From positions 10,544,380 through 10,608,379 of the forward strand of contig OU744450.1 of NCBI GenBank assembly GCA_916610825.1: a stretch of DNA of 64,000 nt, read 5' to 3'. The stretch is from Haliclystus octoradiatus (taxonomy: Eukaryota > Cnidaria > Staurozoa > Stauromedusae > Haliclystidae). Positions 10,701 to 62,474 of this stretch are shown in pieces. Each line of letters begins with the position of its first letter. The stretch's first letter is position 1. The notes beneath the pieces were generated by a model, which made no database searches, had not been told where the DNA came from, and saw only the letters and a program-made list of their open reading frames with translations. A program made the position numbers and the translations under genes.

Positions 10701-13700
10701 GTACTAAATCTAAACCTCCCTATTGATTTGCAGTGTAACAGCTGAGATCAATAAAGAGCATTTACAATCATTGCTCCTAACGAAAAGTGCCATTCTTCTA
10801 GAGATAGAAGAGTGGTATGGGTGCCTTCGATCTGAATTACTACTACTGTACCCTACACCCAAGTTCCACTGAAATACGGATAGCATTGATCTATGTATAG
10901 TTGACGAGAAGGCGATAGTGTTCGTGACTATGACTAACAGTAACAGTATGTAATGGATTCCAACATAGAATATGGTTTGCATTTATGTGGACAAATTGTT
11001 TCTCCACTTACCTTTAATACTGCCGTGTCAGGTCGTGATGGATATGAGAAATCAACATTATCAAATTTGACCTCAACTACAACACAAGAAAATCAGCAAT
11101 TACTGCCCACGATAATGTATCGAAATCAACTCAACTTGCAGAGACTATTCATTTGATATTGTACACCTGTTCCAATCTTCGATTTTATTAATTAGTATAA
11201 AATTCTGGCAGAGAACAGCGCCAAAGTTTACAACATAATTGATTTTGAATCTACTTTCAATTACTCATTAATTCCAAACGGCATTATCAATCCAAAATGA
11301 AGTTACCTCCTTCCATTGATGGTAATGAGTCCTCGCCAGGAAGAATCATTGGTTTACGATCAAGTAGATTAAAAATACGAACTGATGCACCAACAGCCTA
11401 AAATAATAAAAAACATGCGTGTAATGGTCTAATTAGTCTACGTTCCCAACTACGTCAATACCATAATTAGTAGATTCCTATGTTTGTATATCTACAGTTC
11501 TATCATGTAAACGTTCTCTTTTACCTGAGCTTGCAAGATCTTACTGTACGATCGTGTCTGTTGTATCAAAAAGCTCTGACTAGCGGCCATAGTCGCCCTT
11601 AGCACCTCTCCTTGTAATGTCAGCAGTCAGCAGACACGGCCATATCATTATTGTAATAAAGAGTCTACCTTATACCAACTGTGTCGTATATATTATCTGC
11701 TATATGTGAAATAAAATGTCTGAAGAGGTCAATTTTCTTGCAACTAGTCGTTAGATGCAAGTTCAAAAATTTACCTGCATAAAATCTCCATAGAGAGACG
11801 AAAGAAAAGCAAATGCCATTGCAACCTGAAGGGTGTATATCATGAATGCTAAAATAAAATTCAATAATGATAAAATCAGATTAACAAATCGCAATCAGGA
11901 TATATCTGTTTAAAGTAGATCTTTTTAGGAAATATTCAATCAGTATGCAGTGAAATGCATTTATGATTATATTTACAATTAAAAGTTTTTTCTTGAATTC
12001 GTCGTCAAAACAATTATTTGAAATTTCAAATTAAATTCCTGTAGAATTTGAAATTTGAAAATCGGATTGGAATCCGGTTAAAATGAATTGGATTTAAGAA
12101 ACTCCATTTTCCACTTAAGTAAGTTGCATTGTTTCCCCTAGTTTATAATTGACAGTAAGTCTGAGAGCGGGCTAGTTGCAGTATGGATGCTATAATGATA
12201 ACTTCAATTAGGATAAATAAAATACAATACATGAATAAATAATCCTTAAATATCCTGCGAAAAACAGGAGGGCAGTTCATGAACAGTTCATGAACGTTAA
12301 ATGGCCCCAAAATGTTCAGAAACTGTCCCTGAACTGTTCGCGAGGGTTCATGAACAGTTCATGAAAAATGGGGCCATTTAACATTCATCAGCTGTTTATG
12401 AACTCCTGAACTGTTTTTTGCAGGGGTACTCACAAGTTAGTGTTCCGATACTCATATCACAATGATGAACTAATTTACCAAACTAAATGGTAAACATCAT
12501 GAACTAATTTACCCAACGGAATGGCCCAAAAATGTTCATAAACTGTCCCTGAACTGTTCGCGAGGGTTCATGAACAGTTCATCAAAAACGGGGCATTTAA
12601 CATTCATCAACTGTTCATGAACTCCTGGACTGTTTTTAGCAGGGGTACTCACAAGTTCGTGTTCCGATACTCATATCACCATGATGAACTAATTTACAAA
12701 ACTAAATGGTAAACATCATGAACTAATTTACCAAACGGAATGGCCCCAAAATGTGCATAAACTGTCCCTGAACTGTTTGCGAGGGTTCATGAACAGTTCA
12801 TGAAAAATGGGGCCATTTAACATTCATTGACTGTTCATGAATTCCTGAACTGTTTTTCGTAGGGGGTACTCACAAGTTAATGTTCCAATACTCATATCAC
12901 AATGATGAACTAATTTACCAAACGGAATGGCCCCAAAATGTGCATAAACTGTCCCTGAACTGTTTGCGAGGGTTCATGAACAGTTCATGAAAAATGGGGT
13001 CATTTAACATTCATCAACTTTTCATGAACTCCTGAACTGTTTTTCGCAGGGGTACTCACAAGTTAGTGTTCCGATACTCATATCACCATCATGAACTAAT
13101 TTACCACCATACCAGAGGACAAGAACAACAGCACCCTTTTCAATGAAAATAAGAAGAACATTTTATGGGCTAGAAGGCCCATGATCTTTAGATAATTATG
13201 TACAGTGATCACGTCTAAATTGTATCAAATAATAGTAATTACGTTGACATTTACTACTTTTCTTCATTTACCTTGATCTAGCTATATGGTGCAAACAGTA
13301 CCTTGTTCCTTGGGTATAGTACCAGTGCTAATGGCCAGATGCATTGCTAAACTATGTTTAATCAATTTGAGCGGCCTGATATGAGTTGATCTACACCCGG
13401 GGGTACTTTTAGTAATGTTGTTTCCTGACATTACTGAATTTTCATTAATTTAAAATAATTGTCACAAAATAGTCCCACAATTCATTCCTCGTCCCAGTTT
13501 GTGCCTTGCTAATTGTCTTGTTCTATTCACATAATTTATAAGAAAATTGCAACAGACTACCACACATTGGTAGTGGAAATAACAATCAGTATACTAAACT
13601 CGGTGCTAATGAGCAGAAATTACAAGATCTCCATATATCGTTGCAATCATTCATTACCTGGGCGACAATGCTCATACCAGCGTTAAACCAACCTGAAAAC

Positions 13701-16700
13701 AGTAGAAAAAATTAATACAGTTTGAAGTTTTAAAGCAAAATATCGTTCATAGGCATAAACACACCCAGGATTCTATTTATTTTATTACTTATTTTTCTAC
13801 AACACATTTGTCAGAAAATAAGGTAACGTCTATCTGAATGCCTGAGAAGAGTCCGACAAAAGGTTTAGCTTTCTGGATTCCTACAGGCATTTCTAAATTT
13901 TCTTCTTGAATGTTTTTGTTGAAGGTTGACCAATAAATCATAAAAATATCAATTTTCTTCTGAATTTGCTCGAACCTTACGGAATCTAGGATTCTCACTT
14001 TTATCAGAGCCTGTGCCTAAGTATTTCAAGAGATTTACTCATTCAACAGGTTTGTCATCTGACTTTATTGTAAATTCTATTGGTTCTGCTCTTGATGGTT
14101 AGTTTTCGTCCAGAGCCTATTATTATACAGTTTGTTCTGTTAATATTTAATATTAGTTAGATTGGAATTTAGAAAAATTTGGAAGAATCACACAGCATGC
14201 CCATTGTATTTTTAACAATAAAATGGTGTTTCTTGCGCAATCGTTTTTTGTTCGACCTTTGTTAGCACGCAAAGCAGCGTGTTGAACGTTATTTCAAAAG
14301 AACAATAGATTTAATGAAATGAAAAATGAAATGAAATGAAAACGTTTCCACCATGACAGCATAGACTCAAGGTCACTTACTTAACCATGAGTCAAAAATG
14401 CTCAGATATCTGTATGTATTCAAGATGGCTGATTCAAGTTCTGTCTACATGTGTTGGCATGATCAACAGCATAATCATCAATTATATAAGTGAGACTGGT
14501 TACTATAACAACAGTTGTATTCTTGCAACATATTAAGATGTGATTAATTAGTACTGTAGGAGGCTCTACTTAAAATTTACATCCCGTGAAACACAATTTA
14601 TAAACAATTCATGAACTGTAACAAAGCGTCTATAGACTGCCTATCAATGTTCATGAACTCATCTCAACGTAAATATGGTTCTGATCAGAAGTTCAATTAA
14701 AGTGTTAATCTATATCATATTGAAAATCTAGTCTAAGCTCAGACAATCTAAGTTGTTGAAAAAGAGTGGTTTGTATACATCTTCCATAACAATTTTCATA
14801 CTCACCTCCTGCTAGAGCCAATTTCTTGCCAAGGGCGAAAGAATTAATGATATCTACATCATACATACGAGAACTCTTTGATTCTTGGGAAAAAGATCGA
14901 ACAGTTCTTACATTGCCAATGGATTCTTCTGCAGTAGTGGAGGCTTTTGCTAGTTCGTCTTGAAAATGTTTTCGGAGCTTTTGCACGTATCCACCTGAAT
15001 TTAGAACAAAATAAAATTTAGACTATGCAGTTAAATTACTGTCTAAACATTTGGCTGGATGAAAAAGGCATCAGTTCACAAACAATTCAGAAAATTCATT
15101 ATGGACATTAAATGCAATGTCTATACAAAAAAAATGTTTAAGAAGTTGAAGTTCTCATGAACTATTTATGAAGTGTTGATGGACAGTTCAAGAACAGTTC
15201 AAGAACAGTTCAAGAACAGTTCAAGAACAATTCAAGAACTTTTAGCCATTTAAAGTTCATGAACTGTATTTCACAGGAGGTCATATCAAGAATACAGGAT
15301 ACCGTCAAGCACAAACCCATTGTAATAAAAACACAATGATATCAGACCTTTCTGTATCCACTCGCCGTATGGGATATCTTTTCCTGATGCTTTCCCATGT
15401 CTCACTTTCTTTGAATGAGGTGATCTAAAAACAGCTGCTGTTTTGTAACTCTTTAGTAATATTATCTAATATTTCTAAACTCTAATATGTAGTCTTTATT
15501 GTCACTTACCATACTGCTGAGCACCAATTGCAACAACGGGGACAACTGCTAATAACACGGCTGTCAGACGAGCACTGACACCAAACATCACTACCAACGA
15601 GCCAACAACTTGTACTAGATAGCGAAACAACATGGAAATATTGACCTGGAATTCATAAACATAATATATGTACAAAATGATTCCATTGATTTTACGAAAT
15701 TACCAGAGGGAAAACATCAGCCTATGGTTTAAAAAGATTGAATAAAGGTCTATTGGTTATTCTATATATTGTTTCAAAATTCGACACTCATTCCTCATAT
15801 TCAATGTTCATTCCCTTGTAATCTAATCTGCTTAACCCTTTTACTTATGTACTTAAGAAAATTAATACCCCCTTCTTCACAGATGTTCTTTAAGTTTTCA
15901 AGCCAATACAACCTTAGACCTACTTTTGTTACACATATTATAACTGACATACCGTAACTGCATTTTGAATTACTTCAGAATCAGATGCCAATCTATTCAT
16001 GAGTTCACCAGTTCTAAAATGCGAGAAAAATATAAAAAAATTAAGAAGCAAGCATATTAGCAGCAGATATCAGCATCAAACTATAAATAAAGTAGCCTTA
16101 TAAATGATTCCAAAGTCTATACAGAACTTGAAAATTAAGTTACTCAAATATTGCAAATAAGATGAGATTCTATGATGTTACCTGTTTTGGTCAAAAAACG
16201 CAATTTCTTGCTGCATGATGTGATGGAAAACCTAAAATCAATCCAAATAAAATATGTCAACGGTATTGGATTAATCAATCTACTAATTAATATGCCTAAA
16301 CAATAAAAAATGAGAATCATAAAGTCTGATATTTCTTTTTATCCAGGACTATAAGGCAGAACAGTTTCCATTTTAGTTTAAGTTTGATAATTCTTTCCCT
16401 GTGAGTAAAGTTTATGAGTTCATAACGTGAAATTGCAAGTTCATGTGAAAATTCCAAAGTTTGGGCAATTTTCTGTTCATGAACTGTTCTTGAACCTTGA
16501 AGGAAATATTAATGAACTGTTGAAAGTTAAAAATTGTCCATGAAAATTGAAAATTCACAAAGTTCATGAAATATTCATGACTCATTATTTTTTACACCTG
16601 TAGGTTATGTCAAATTGGTTCATTATCATGACTATGAAATTATGACTTTGAAACAAAATAATTTGTGACAGTATAGCCTGCAAACAGTAAATCGTGATTC

Positions 16701-28300: not shown

Positions 28301-31300
28301 GGTCACAATATGAACAATTTATATCCACATTGAATCCAACATCTCCACAAGGGTCAGCTCTTTACAGTGGTATCTTGAAGCTGGCTGTGAGTTGTGCACA
28401 GGTTTTATTGTATGCATAACACTTAACTCTAGACTATAGTATCCTCATACTTTTTACTTTCGAGGTACAAACAATGACAGAACAGGAGAAGTGCTGTGTA
28501 CTTCTATTGGATGAAATGGCAATCAAACCAGCATTTGATTTTGATCGTCGAACAGAGTCCATAATTGGACAATGTACTCTGAAAGGTAGTAAGGAAAAAG
28601 TGATGGATGGTGAAGCCGCAAACCATGCTCTTGTATTTATGCTACGTGGTTTAACAATGAGATGGAAACAGGTGGTGGCATATTATTTCACTGGCTCGTC
28701 ATTTGACAGTTTAGAAGTGCACGATGTCATCATTAAAATTATTTCAAGGGCATGTAAGATTGGTCTTTCCACTTTGAATGTTACCATGGATATGGGTGGT
28801 GGTAATATTGCGGTCTTGAACGATTTTAAAGTGTCCTGTAAGAGAAAAAAGAAAAAAGCAACTCTTGAAAATCCAAACCCAGCACCTGAAATCATTATAA
28901 AAAACTCATGTGAACACCCAGTTCTAGAAAAGCAGGAATTGACCTTTATGCCTGATGTCCCACATTTAATAAAAAATTTGAGAAATCATCTATCTCGAAG
29001 GCAAGTTATATACCTTCCCGAAATAATTGTCAAATCGAATAACCTTTCATCAAATGAAGTTTCAATGGCTCCTTTACAACGTCTTGTTGAATATGATTTA
29101 ACGAACGACTTGAAAATCGCTCCACATTTGAATAATAATGCTATCAACCCTAGTCATTTTACCAAAATGAAAGTTAATTTGGCAAAAAATTTACTCTCGA
29201 GAAGAACTGGGGCTGCAGTAAGATTGTTGGTGTAGGAAAAATTTCTCCATAGATCAGCTTTATCAACTGCCTGGTTTTGTGAGCAAATTGGTCTGTGGTT
29301 TGATTTAATGACTTCAAGATCACCGTCAATGAGCCTCAGCCTTTTTGATAAGGAAAAGCATGAAGAGGTTGTAAAATTTTTAAATTCCATTATTGACCTT
29401 TTTAAATGCCTAAATATTGGAGACATTGATGCACCATGGAAACCAGTGCAGTCAGGCATTATTTTGGCAACAACAAGTGCTCAGCAAATGCAGAATTGTT
29501 TGTTAATGGAGAAACAGTACAAATTCTTAATGATGAGCCGCTTCACACAGGACGCTTTGGAAAATTTATTTTCATCTGTTAGATATAAAAATCCGGTCCC
29601 AACTGCTATTGAGTTTGTCAATGCATCGCGTATAATTGCCATTTCACAGTGTATCTCAAGCAAAAACACTGGTTCATACTAGAAAGACGAGGATCAACCA
29701 TGCTGCAGTATTCTGGACATGGAATTCCAATTATCACCTGATGATAAAAAGCTTGATCAAGCAGATGAGATTGAGAATGGGGACCTTACAAAGTTGGAAG
29801 ATTTCAGCTTAGAAAACTTAGGCGGCTATGCTGTCCACCAGTTTTTAAAGCTCAATAAGCATTGCGCAGAGTGCAAGAATATGCTTGTGGTTTCTGCACC
29901 TGCACTAGCCCAACCATTGGATGTCAGTCATGATTATGGATGTACACCAAAATCTCTAGTGGAGCTAGCAGACTATACCAAAAAGGCGCTGACATATATT
30001 TCACAAGATGCTAAGGAAGTATTTATGTTAGCAGAAACTATATTCCGCAAAAACGAGGATAAATTGTTTTCCCACAGCAACATTATGCAGAAACTTGTGG
30101 ATGCATGTACAATTGCAAATAAAACTAATAAAATACCAGACTGTCACAAGGCCAAAACGATGATAACTAAAACGTTCTTCAGAGTTAAAATCAAAACAGT
30201 GCTGGAAAAAAGAACAAAACAAGCAAATGCTGTGAAAGCAACCTCAAAGGGGTCAAGATCCATAGCGATGAGGGATGCCATAAAATAGGATAGGTTAAAT
30301 GATTATAAGACCAACATATTATGATGTTACTATATTGTAAAATAAATAACGAATAATAAAATCTCACATACCACACATCTCCTTTATTCTTCAATCCAAA
30401 TTTGATTTAAGCTGTTGTTATGGCAGAGCTGTCTATGGTTATACGGCATATAATCTGCAATTTATCGACAGCTGCTTATTAGTTTGCAGTAAGTGCACAA
30501 TATCGCACACTATTGGTAAGCTGTTTAGCTGACAAATCCACAACAACGCTCTAAACACGCTTCCAGCAAGCTTACATACCACTATTTCAGTACTAAAGGC
30601 TTCCAGTTAATTGATTGAAGTCTTCTTCAAACTTCTTGAGATTCTTTTTATGATCTATTGTTATATTTCAGGTAAAATTATTATATAAAACTCCATAATA
30701 AATGCGTGCAACCTTCGTTTCTCAAATTAAACAAGTTTGGATCAACAATGGCCGCTGGCCGCGCTAATAACTTGGTCCCAGACTACCGTGTCCTAACTCT
30801 TCTAAATAGATAGCTCTGAGTATGGTTAGTGCCTTTTCGCTCTAGTGCCTTTCGATAGCTGTTAACGCGTAGTTTGTCAACTTTTCCTTCAGTCTTACAA
30901 TTCGTGATGTTGATATCTGATCCAATGTCTTGTTATTCAGAATATATACAATAGGATTGTGATCAACAATTTGTTGAAAGGACGCTCCTTGCAGGAACAT
31001 GTGACATTTTCGTATTGCCCAAAGTACTGACGTTAATTTTATTTCGGTTGCTGAGTATCGTGTTTCAGCTTCCATGGCGTATCTTGACCCGCACTGAAGT
31101 AGCTTTCAGGTGGAGTTCTCTTCTTCACTCCATAGTGCGTACTCGAGACCTTTAGATTGGGCGGCGTCAGTTTCTAGCCTTAGTTTTCATGACGGGGTGA
31201 ATTGAGTGAGGATTCGTAGGCTGACCAGACTTGCAATGATGTTGTCGAATGCTTCTTGGTGGAAGGTTTCCCGGGTGACTGCTGATGTAGATGAAAGAGG

Positions 31301-34300
31301 AGCTCGCAAAGGCTGCGAAAGACGGGCAATGTCGTTGGAAAATGCCTCACATTGTTGTACAAGGCCACAAAATGATCTCAGGTCAGTGCGACTTTTTGGA
31401 ATCGGAAATTTTGACAATGCATCGACAAGATCTGGATTGACTGTGTATCCTTCAGAGTTGATCACATATCCACACCAGTTGGCTGACGATTGGGCAAAAT
31501 GGATCTTTTTCTTGTTGAGTGTGATACCAAATTGTTGACATCTTTTGATGATTGACTTTACTCTTTTGATATGATCATCGAGGTTCTTGTCATATACGAT
31601 GACGTCTTCAACCACTTTTTGAACGTTTCCAATCCCTGCTATGGCTTCATCACCACGTCTGTTGTGCTCGTCCCCAGCGCTCACTAGACCCATCACATTT
31701 CTTCTAAATCTGTAGCCCCCCAGGGTGTAATGAAGGTTGTTAATGGTCGAAATTCTTCAGATAAATCAACTTGCAAATAACCATGTCTGGCGTCTGGTGT
31801 TGTAAAGTAGTTCATACCTTTAGGATCTTTGCAATTACCTTGCGGGGCACTTTTGATGGGTACCCTGGCCGTTTCACATACTTGTTAAGTGATGTTAGGT
31901 CAACTGTTATGCGTGGTTCATTACTATGTTTCTTGTGTGTGATCCACCACCATGGGGTGGATCCATGCTGGTGACTCCCCGAGGGGTACCTTCTCAATGA
32001 TGCCTTTTGTTTCCATACTGTGAAGTTGATCTTGGACTGTGTTTTGCCAGTGGTATGGAATGGAATATGCTTCGTACCGGCAACTAGGTATGGCATCATC
32101 AGTCAACTCAATTGTCATACTTGGTCCTTCCATTGTTTTCAAAATCCCTTTGTCCTGAAATACATCTGGGAATTCTGCAATTAAGGAATCATTGTTGTGG
32201 TGGGATTGGTAATCTGAATTTATTGGGACTATCTTGGCCCCAGAGGTTGTAGGGGTTGTCAATGAGACATTTTTTTCTTCTTTAACGTGTGGCCAGGCTT
32301 TCGGTAAAAGTCCTAGAGCAATGCAACCTTTCTTGCTAAGTAGTGGTGCATTTGATTTGTCCACTACTTGAACATCAGCTTCATGAATTTTGCCGGAATG
32401 TTCTATTTTGAGATGGACGCATCCTAGTGTTGTCATGGGTGTCTTTGATTCGCTGTGTATAGACATGCAGTAGATGTCTTCAAATTATGAATGAGATCAG
32501 GGTGGAGTTGGTTTAGTGAAAATATGTCAATTAAATCACATGCTGCACCACTATCAGGTAAGCAACTTAATTCTGAGAAACCATGTTCATGAGTGGTGTC
32601 TAATTTCAATGTTGTCATGCCATTGTTCATGAGATAAAAGTATCACAATTAAAAGTATCAAGTAAAAATTGATAAAAATGGCATTTGTTTGCTTTGCATG
32701 CTCACTTTTAGCTTTAGAAAAACACACATATCTGTTGAATGGCCCTTTTTTCACAGAAGCCACACGTGGTCTCCTTAGCAGGACATTCGCTTGGTTGATG
32801 GCAAAGGGATTTTCCACATTTCTTGCAAATATTATTGTCTATGGGATCTATGGACCCACTTGAGCTAGTCTGAGCTTTGCTAGCGGTGTCTTGTTGATCT
32901 TTCCATTTATTTTACAGAAAGTTGAATTAACTGTTTTTTGCGATGTTAATGTAGCAAAATTTTTGGCTAGAACTTTTTCTTGGGTGTTGCTGTCTAGCAG
33001 ACCACAGATTAAACGGTCACAAATTCTTTCGTCACGCAATATTTTGGGGAGACCGTTATCAACGTGACAAGTGTTGCATAACAAAGTGGGGGAGAACCCA
33101 CAGCTTTCATCTAGCTGACAAAGGGCGGCATAATAAGCATCAACCGACTCACAGCTCCATTGGTCTCGTGTGTGAAAGTCATCATCATTTCATCAGTCTT
33201 TTCTGTCTAGAAGGGGATTCCTTATTCTTTCTCAGGTAATCACCCAATTGTTTTATGATAACCTCGATGCCATCTTCTTCAGAAATGTCTAGAACGCGGC
33301 CAGACCATAACTTCAACCACTTTTCGTATAAACACGATCGCAGATTTCCTCTTCTGGCTATTAAGTTGCAATCGTTGGAAATTTTAAAATTTTATAGTTA
33401 AGATTCAAAAACAGTGAAGGCCTTTTGGAGAGGTGCTTTTAGACCTCAAAAAGTAGATCCGGCCCTGTGTATCTTTCACAATGTGTTAGGCACTGCCGCT
33501 GGGGCTCCAATCCAAAGAACTACTACTTGTTATTGAAATTCCCATTGTCAATCAGCTATATCAAATAAGAAGTATATTTGAGATAGCGGGTGGAATGTAC
33601 GAGGTGGTACTGGATTATTACCAGCAGATCTACAATCTGAGTAATAATATAGTCCTATAGAAAAATTAACTAATCCTATGGACACTTTGAACATCAGATA
33701 GTTTTGGAAATAGTCTAGAATTAATCACCATGATTTTCTGAACAAGTTAGAGTAATTTTTCTCATTTTTATCTGAGTTTTAACAGTAACAGCCTGGAACT
33801 AGTTCCGGTGCACATTTAAAAATATTTTCAAACTTCAATTAGTTCAAAATATCATGGTGAATAATTCTAGACTATTTCCAATAGGTATTTGATAGTCAAA
33901 GTGTCCATATGATTGTTTGATTTTTTCTATGGGACTATTCCACACAGATTGTAGATTTACATTATAATGAGATGCTGTGTATCTGTTAATGCTTCTTCCC
34001 CTTTGAAACAAGTTCATTAACGTTCATGAACTAGCTCATCAATGTTAAATGGTACAAATTCACAAACTCAGTTCATGAAAGTTCACGATGCCCTTGAATC
34101 CAGATATCCTTGATTTCAGATTATCTTTCAAATGTCAATTCTCATGTTTTACGCTTGATTAAACTAAACATTATTATTTATTATTATTATTATCCTAATC
34201 TTACGTTCCTTCCGCCATCACAAATATGCTTCTCGTGGATAAACTTTGATAAATTTTCATGACTTATTTCATGGTAATTTTTCATGAAAGTTCATAAACA

Positions 34301-48073: not shown

Positions 48074-62474
<14,401 letters not shown>

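Follow-up and report, generated by a model that had tools for sequence, protein, structure and literature searches.

An exon end and its splice donor repeated in tandem with a miniature inverted-repeat transposable element inside an ABC transporter intron of Haliclystus octoradiatus

The DNA analysed here, called the window, is the 64,000-nt stretch at positions 10544380-10608379 of contig OU744450.1 (C6) of Haliclystus octoradiatus (assembly GCA_916610825.1; 262 Mb in 33 contigs). Its minus strand carries an ABCB10-like ABC half-transporter gene, in which the end of exon 9, its splice donor and an adjoining miniature inverted-repeat transposable element (MITE) are repeated in tandem. Exon boundaries were set by eye and the exon numbering was taken from a first-pass annotation of the window. 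The 13 joined exons gave a stop-free product of 426 aa with the Pfam domains ABC_membrane (6.2e-63) and ABC_tran (3.7e-17). Among the best 60 of 444 solved structures, ABCB10 (3zdq, 1.4e-93) was the top match over a single stretch; P-gp-type full transporters scored higher, but over two stretches. Neither the window nor the adjoining 5 kb yielded the signature and Walker B motifs, and the end of the nucleotide-binding domain likewise did not turn up in the window. Most of this remainder was matched about 16-20 kb further on, at C6:10535667 (E 7.1e-10), C6:10534320 (E 1.7e-6) and C6:10532593 (E 0.24). Since these matches lie in order on the strand of the gene, the transporter gene looks intact, with one intron of about 16 kb, and loss of its end was rejected. 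An intron-free ABCB relative was seen in the same genome at C4:210356-211549 (L064), with an 810-aa open frame and 38% identity over the part searched. The paralogues compared for intron 9 were too distant to date this intron.

Exon 9 (13135-13060, minus strand, like all parts of the array below) is 76 nt long and comprises 25 codons and the first base of the next. Its donor, GTGAGT at 13054-13059, has the 9-mer CTT/GTGAGT (the slash marks the junction), and exon 10 (11775-11848) starts at 11848 behind the acceptor TTTTATTTTAG. The foldback MITE starts 7 nt inside intron 9, in accordance with the first-pass annotation, which had placed the end of exon 9 at 13060 and its donor beside such an element. 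A direct-repeat search and Tandem Repeats Finder located the array within 12276-13116. On the coding strand, the whole exon 9 and GTGAGTA are followed by a truncated MITE (12921-13052), the far end of which is fused directly to exon copy 2 (12874-12920; GTGAGT next at 12873). After GTGAGTA come a second truncated MITE (12734-12866, far end approximate) and a joint with a sub-duplication of about 33 bp reaching to about 12700, then exon copy 3 (12653-12699; GTGAGT next at 12652), GTGAGTA and a third truncated MITE (12515-12645, far end again approximate) with a similar sub-duplicated joint of about 33 bp to about 12481. The last unit consists of exon copy 4 (12434-12480; GTGAGT next at 12433), GTGAGTA and the complete MITE (12254-12426), after which the intron continues. 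Each exon copy is 47 nt long (15 codons). The joints of MITE to exon, and the sub-duplication seen at two of them (units 2-3 and 3-4), were judged by eye.

The two ends of the array are single. Whole exon 9, with its 5' part and acceptor, is present only in unit 1, and the acceptor and first 29 nt of the exon are absent from the copies; the complete far end of the MITE is present only in unit 4. As to the earlier proposal that each exon copy is linked to a MITE copy, the linkage stands, but three of the four elements lack their donor-distal end; 12254-12426 is the sole copy with both terminal inverted repeats. The four donors, at 13059, 12873, 12652 and 12433, are spaced by 186, 221 and 219 nt and share the identical 9-mer. 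With up to 3 mismatches allowed, the 33-mer GGTGATATGAGTATCGGAACACTAACTTGTGAG, which covers exon end and donor, matched 4 places in the window (shuffle mean 0.00; 0 of 100 shuffles reached 4), and the same places were its only matches in the 262-Mb genome at this threshold. Chance was therefore set aside, and the three downstream copies of about 47 nt with intact GTGAGT, as first described, were confirmed.

The complete MITE is 173 bp long and folds back through arms at 12254-12309 and 12369-12424 that are 82% complementary, and thus has the short length, foldback and terminal inverted repeats of a MITE. Copies of its family matched on both strands: with 12254-12426 as the query, 92 matches across the genome came from the 40 candidates scored out of 3075 at first look, and the tips CCCCTGC...GCAGGGG were common to the family copies listed. 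The MITE end CCCCTGCRAAAAACAG occurred 1936 times exactly in the genome (1011 + 925), a high copy number, and the reversed-pattern control 0 times. Because the exon-donor piece was found, at up to 3 mismatches, only in the array, an exon captured by a mobile MITE was rejected.

Flanks were surveyed at 94 loci, 16 others (repeat fetches of the array locus, ABC-exon fetches and 4 double fetches) having been left out. These loci, the majority on C1, were taken from the best matches and from listed places and are not a random sample; a few overlap. A MITE end was present at 93 of the 94, giving 186 ends with distinct flanks, the array's own included. Matching 2-bp flanks, as left by target-site duplication, were found in 42 of 53 two-tipped elements at fetched loci outside the array, with TA the commonest (n=10), and TA preceded 52 of the 186 ends. 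The array was the only clear tandem copying of non-MITE flank among the 93 sampled loci. Two loci (L014 and L060) had one partial flank match of 29 nt each, and at L082, which has many repeats, the repeated flank at 4 ends was MITE sequence itself and one further, non-MITE-like flank had an inverted match (48 nt at 79%). A general habit of the family to amplify its flanks was rejected, the array being the sole clear case among the loci sampled. L082 itself is a dense cluster in which MITE copies adjoin MITE copies. By eye, 24 of about 100 listed MITE-end places fell in 0.34 Mb at C1:2.39-2.73 Mb (e.g. L078, L082 and L083), in a listing that spans C1 0.77-9.74 Mb.

Pairwise differences between units were 2-5 per 47 nt in the exon block (4-11%) and 6-11 per 133-134 nt in the donor and MITE block (4-8%). 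As the two blocks diverge to about the same degree, there is no sign of the copies being kept for use; judged from sequence comparison, the pattern would be that of unselected copies, with numbers too small to exclude weak constraint. The reading frame of the copies had been called almost unchanged; the 15-codon frame is indeed open in every copy, with 2 or 3 amino-acid changes in each. One difference from the true exon, GAT>CAT, is present in all three copies, which suggests their descent from one first copy.

These observations could be explained by the following course of events. One MITE would have inserted at a TA inside the intron 9 donor (GTGAG-TA), and the target duplication would have left the donor intact, the duplicated T restoring the sixth intron base. 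The locus can be read as GTGAG-TA-CCCC...GCAGGA-TA-TTTAAGG, that is, as an insertion at TA within the donor, which fits TA being the commonest 2-bp flank elsewhere; the far end of MITE copy 4, CGCAGG/ATATTTAAGG, is consistent with a TA target duplication beside an altered tip. A tandem duplication, with one breakpoint in the MITE (near ...GGGGCCATTTAACGTT) and the other in exon 9 (TGGTAAATTAG...), may then have produced a second unit of exon end, donor and MITE. The number of units would have risen to four through more unequal exchange and a short sub-duplication at the joint, which one unit would have lost again; the joint of units 1 and 2 resembles the longer joint after a deletion. The copies would since have drifted neutrally inside intron 9. 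That units 1 and 4 each have an outer end present in no other unit, together with the shared GAT>CAT, speaks for a single initial duplication and subsequent growth of the array at the site.

We consider it likely that the locus arose by a single MITE insertion and tandem amplification in place, and that it is a neutral array within intron 9. The array, its unique outer ends, the similar divergence of its exon and MITE blocks and its identical donors are directly observed; the order of the steps and the exchange mechanism are what we infer. The proposal made at the outset, that the MITE landed just inside the intron and was then amplified jointly with the exon end, is well supported because the outer ends are single, a TA duplication is plausible, the copies share one difference and the exon piece has no counterpart elsewhere in the genome. 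Most likely the array is spliced out with intron 9 from the first donor at 13059 to 11848, and it is probably a harmless accident. Several points weigh against this interpretation. The far MITE tip at the array departs from the family, so that the TA duplication depends on one reading of that tip, and 11 of the 53 other elements lacked matching 2-bp flanks. The sub-duplication history is a by-eye reading, the third downstream exon match of the gene is weak (E 0.24), and use of the first donor is inferred. Finally, none of the four donors is damaged, as might be expected of copies so little diverged, but this would also be compatible with their use.

On a donor matrix, the four array donors scored 7.19 each, within the range of the 13 donors of the gene (2.98-12.64). 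A GT within exon 9 at 13112 (CTGGTATGG) scored 7.62 and thus outscored the true donor, indicating that donor score alone is not decisive. The acceptor of exon 9 (window 13136) ends in GAAAAG, whereas the other 11 scored acceptors have C or T before AG, and its score of -9.33 (leave-one-out matrix) was the weakest of 12, the next weakest being 1.55. The far end of the MITE at window 12254, CCCTCCTGTTTTTCGCAG/G, resembles a 3' splice site (pyrimidine fraction 0.875); it was not among the 12 best intron 9 acceptors by matrix.

If the downstream donors were sometimes used, truncated isoforms with exon 9 extended to 262, 483 or 702 nt would result and output would be lowered via nonsense-mediated decay. 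The same 9-mer at four donors, the near-identical 47 nt upstream of each and the weakest acceptor at exon 9 speak for such use. However, whichever downstream donor were used, the extended exon 9 would run into one and the same stop, at codon 38 of the exon 9 frame and 12 codons beyond the true donor, and use of these donors would therefore cost the gene. In addition, an equilibrium model predicted pairing between the terminal inverted repeat that adjoins the true donor and the one at the far end (38.4 of 56 expected pairs), which would enclose the decoy donors. Donor accessibility gave no consistent order separating the first donor from the other three, which lends extended isoforms no help, and it was rejected as a discriminator. 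We regard even occasional formation of these isoforms as unlikely. The weak acceptor would be compatible with a role of the additional donors in supporting exon 9. It is very unlikely, though, that the donor array acts on splicing, be it that extra U1-binding sites help to define a short exon with a poor acceptor while the MITE panhandle folds the decoys away, or that in-frame micro-exons of 36 nt add steps of 12 residues.

The latter would arise if an internal AG served as acceptor (AAATTAG/TTCATC) together with the copied donor, each copy adding FHH[C/G]DMSIGT[L/R]T. All three cassettes are exactly 36 nt long, keep the phase and are stop-free, and the three together are still open; a multiple of 3 would arise by chance in 1 of 3 cases, and since the copies inherited this length together, it is a single piece of evidence. 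The acceptors of copies 3 and 4 (4.5 and 4.2) outscored 4 of the 12 true acceptors, including that of exon 9, in the leave-one-out comparison, but the internal acceptor has a poor pyrimidine tract and fails a simple filter, and a score of 4.2 or more is also reached by 33 of the 516 remaining AGs in the gene span, those of the array excluded. The acceptor of copy 2 reached only 0.8, which 97 of the 516 AGs equal or exceed, and the insertion would land in the transmembrane region. Micro-exons of this kind are highly unlikely. A 49-nt cassette from acceptors at 12701 and 12482 passed the simple filter and was rejected for its early stop and matrix score of -1.1. There is a slim chance that the array is an assembly artefact: the units differ by 4-11% and by indels and are unequally spaced, unlike collapsed or repeated reads, the 262-Mb assembly consists of only 33 contigs, and no duplication outside the array was detected in 11401-14400. 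Least credible is that the MITE family is introner-like or targets donors, with the array as one visible case. Seven places in the genome have GTRAGTNCCCCTGCRAAAAA, 2 of them within the array, but the 5 other donor-like junctions lacked a convincing coding exon upstream (by eye) and the MITE contains neither splice site of intron 9; this candidate was rejected.

Elsewhere in the window, a 3.5-kb ATA-type microsatellite with recurring non-repeat blocks between its runs lies at 48554-52076. Frames at 28420-30288 (plus strand) are presumably transposase-like, and those at 31187-33189 (minus strand) we take to be retroelement polymerase-like, both from resemblance judged by eye.

As the four donors of this one intron have an identical 9-mer in nearly identical surroundings, position should weigh heavily in the choice among them, and the locus offers a natural test of proximal-donor choice among identical splice sites. 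It also illustrates how a transposon beside an exon can accompany partial duplication of that exon; should it be neutral, which is likely, the array is an unremarkable if neat instance of genome decay. A literature search gave, by title, no paper on such an array; its wording may have missed some, and absence from print is not claimed.

An introner provides the donor, the acceptor or both for the intron that it creates. In H. octoradiatus the MITE sits in an intron that has its donor (13059) and its acceptor (before 11848) beyond the ends of the element. The likeness to introners (the subject of PMC9860276) is that of a short inverted-repeat element at a splice site. Mutually exclusive tandem exons, in which acceptor and whole exon are copied, also differ from the array, where neither is. 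The array shares with intron gain by tandem duplication that a stretch of a gene carrying splice signals has been copied side by side. In the potato RdRp case (PMC4974935), the tandem duplication likewise takes along part of an exon, a splice site and part of an intron, whereas here the donor is crossed, the copies are linked to a MITE and number four units, and no new intron is shown. MITE sequence also enters a tandem array in Xstir of Xenopus, where the repeats may derive from internal MITE sequence (reviewed in PMC12628747). A satellite derived from a MITE alone does not describe the present array, since its unit holds 47 nt of exon 9 and the donor: host exon, donor and most of the MITE are repeated together, at one locus only.
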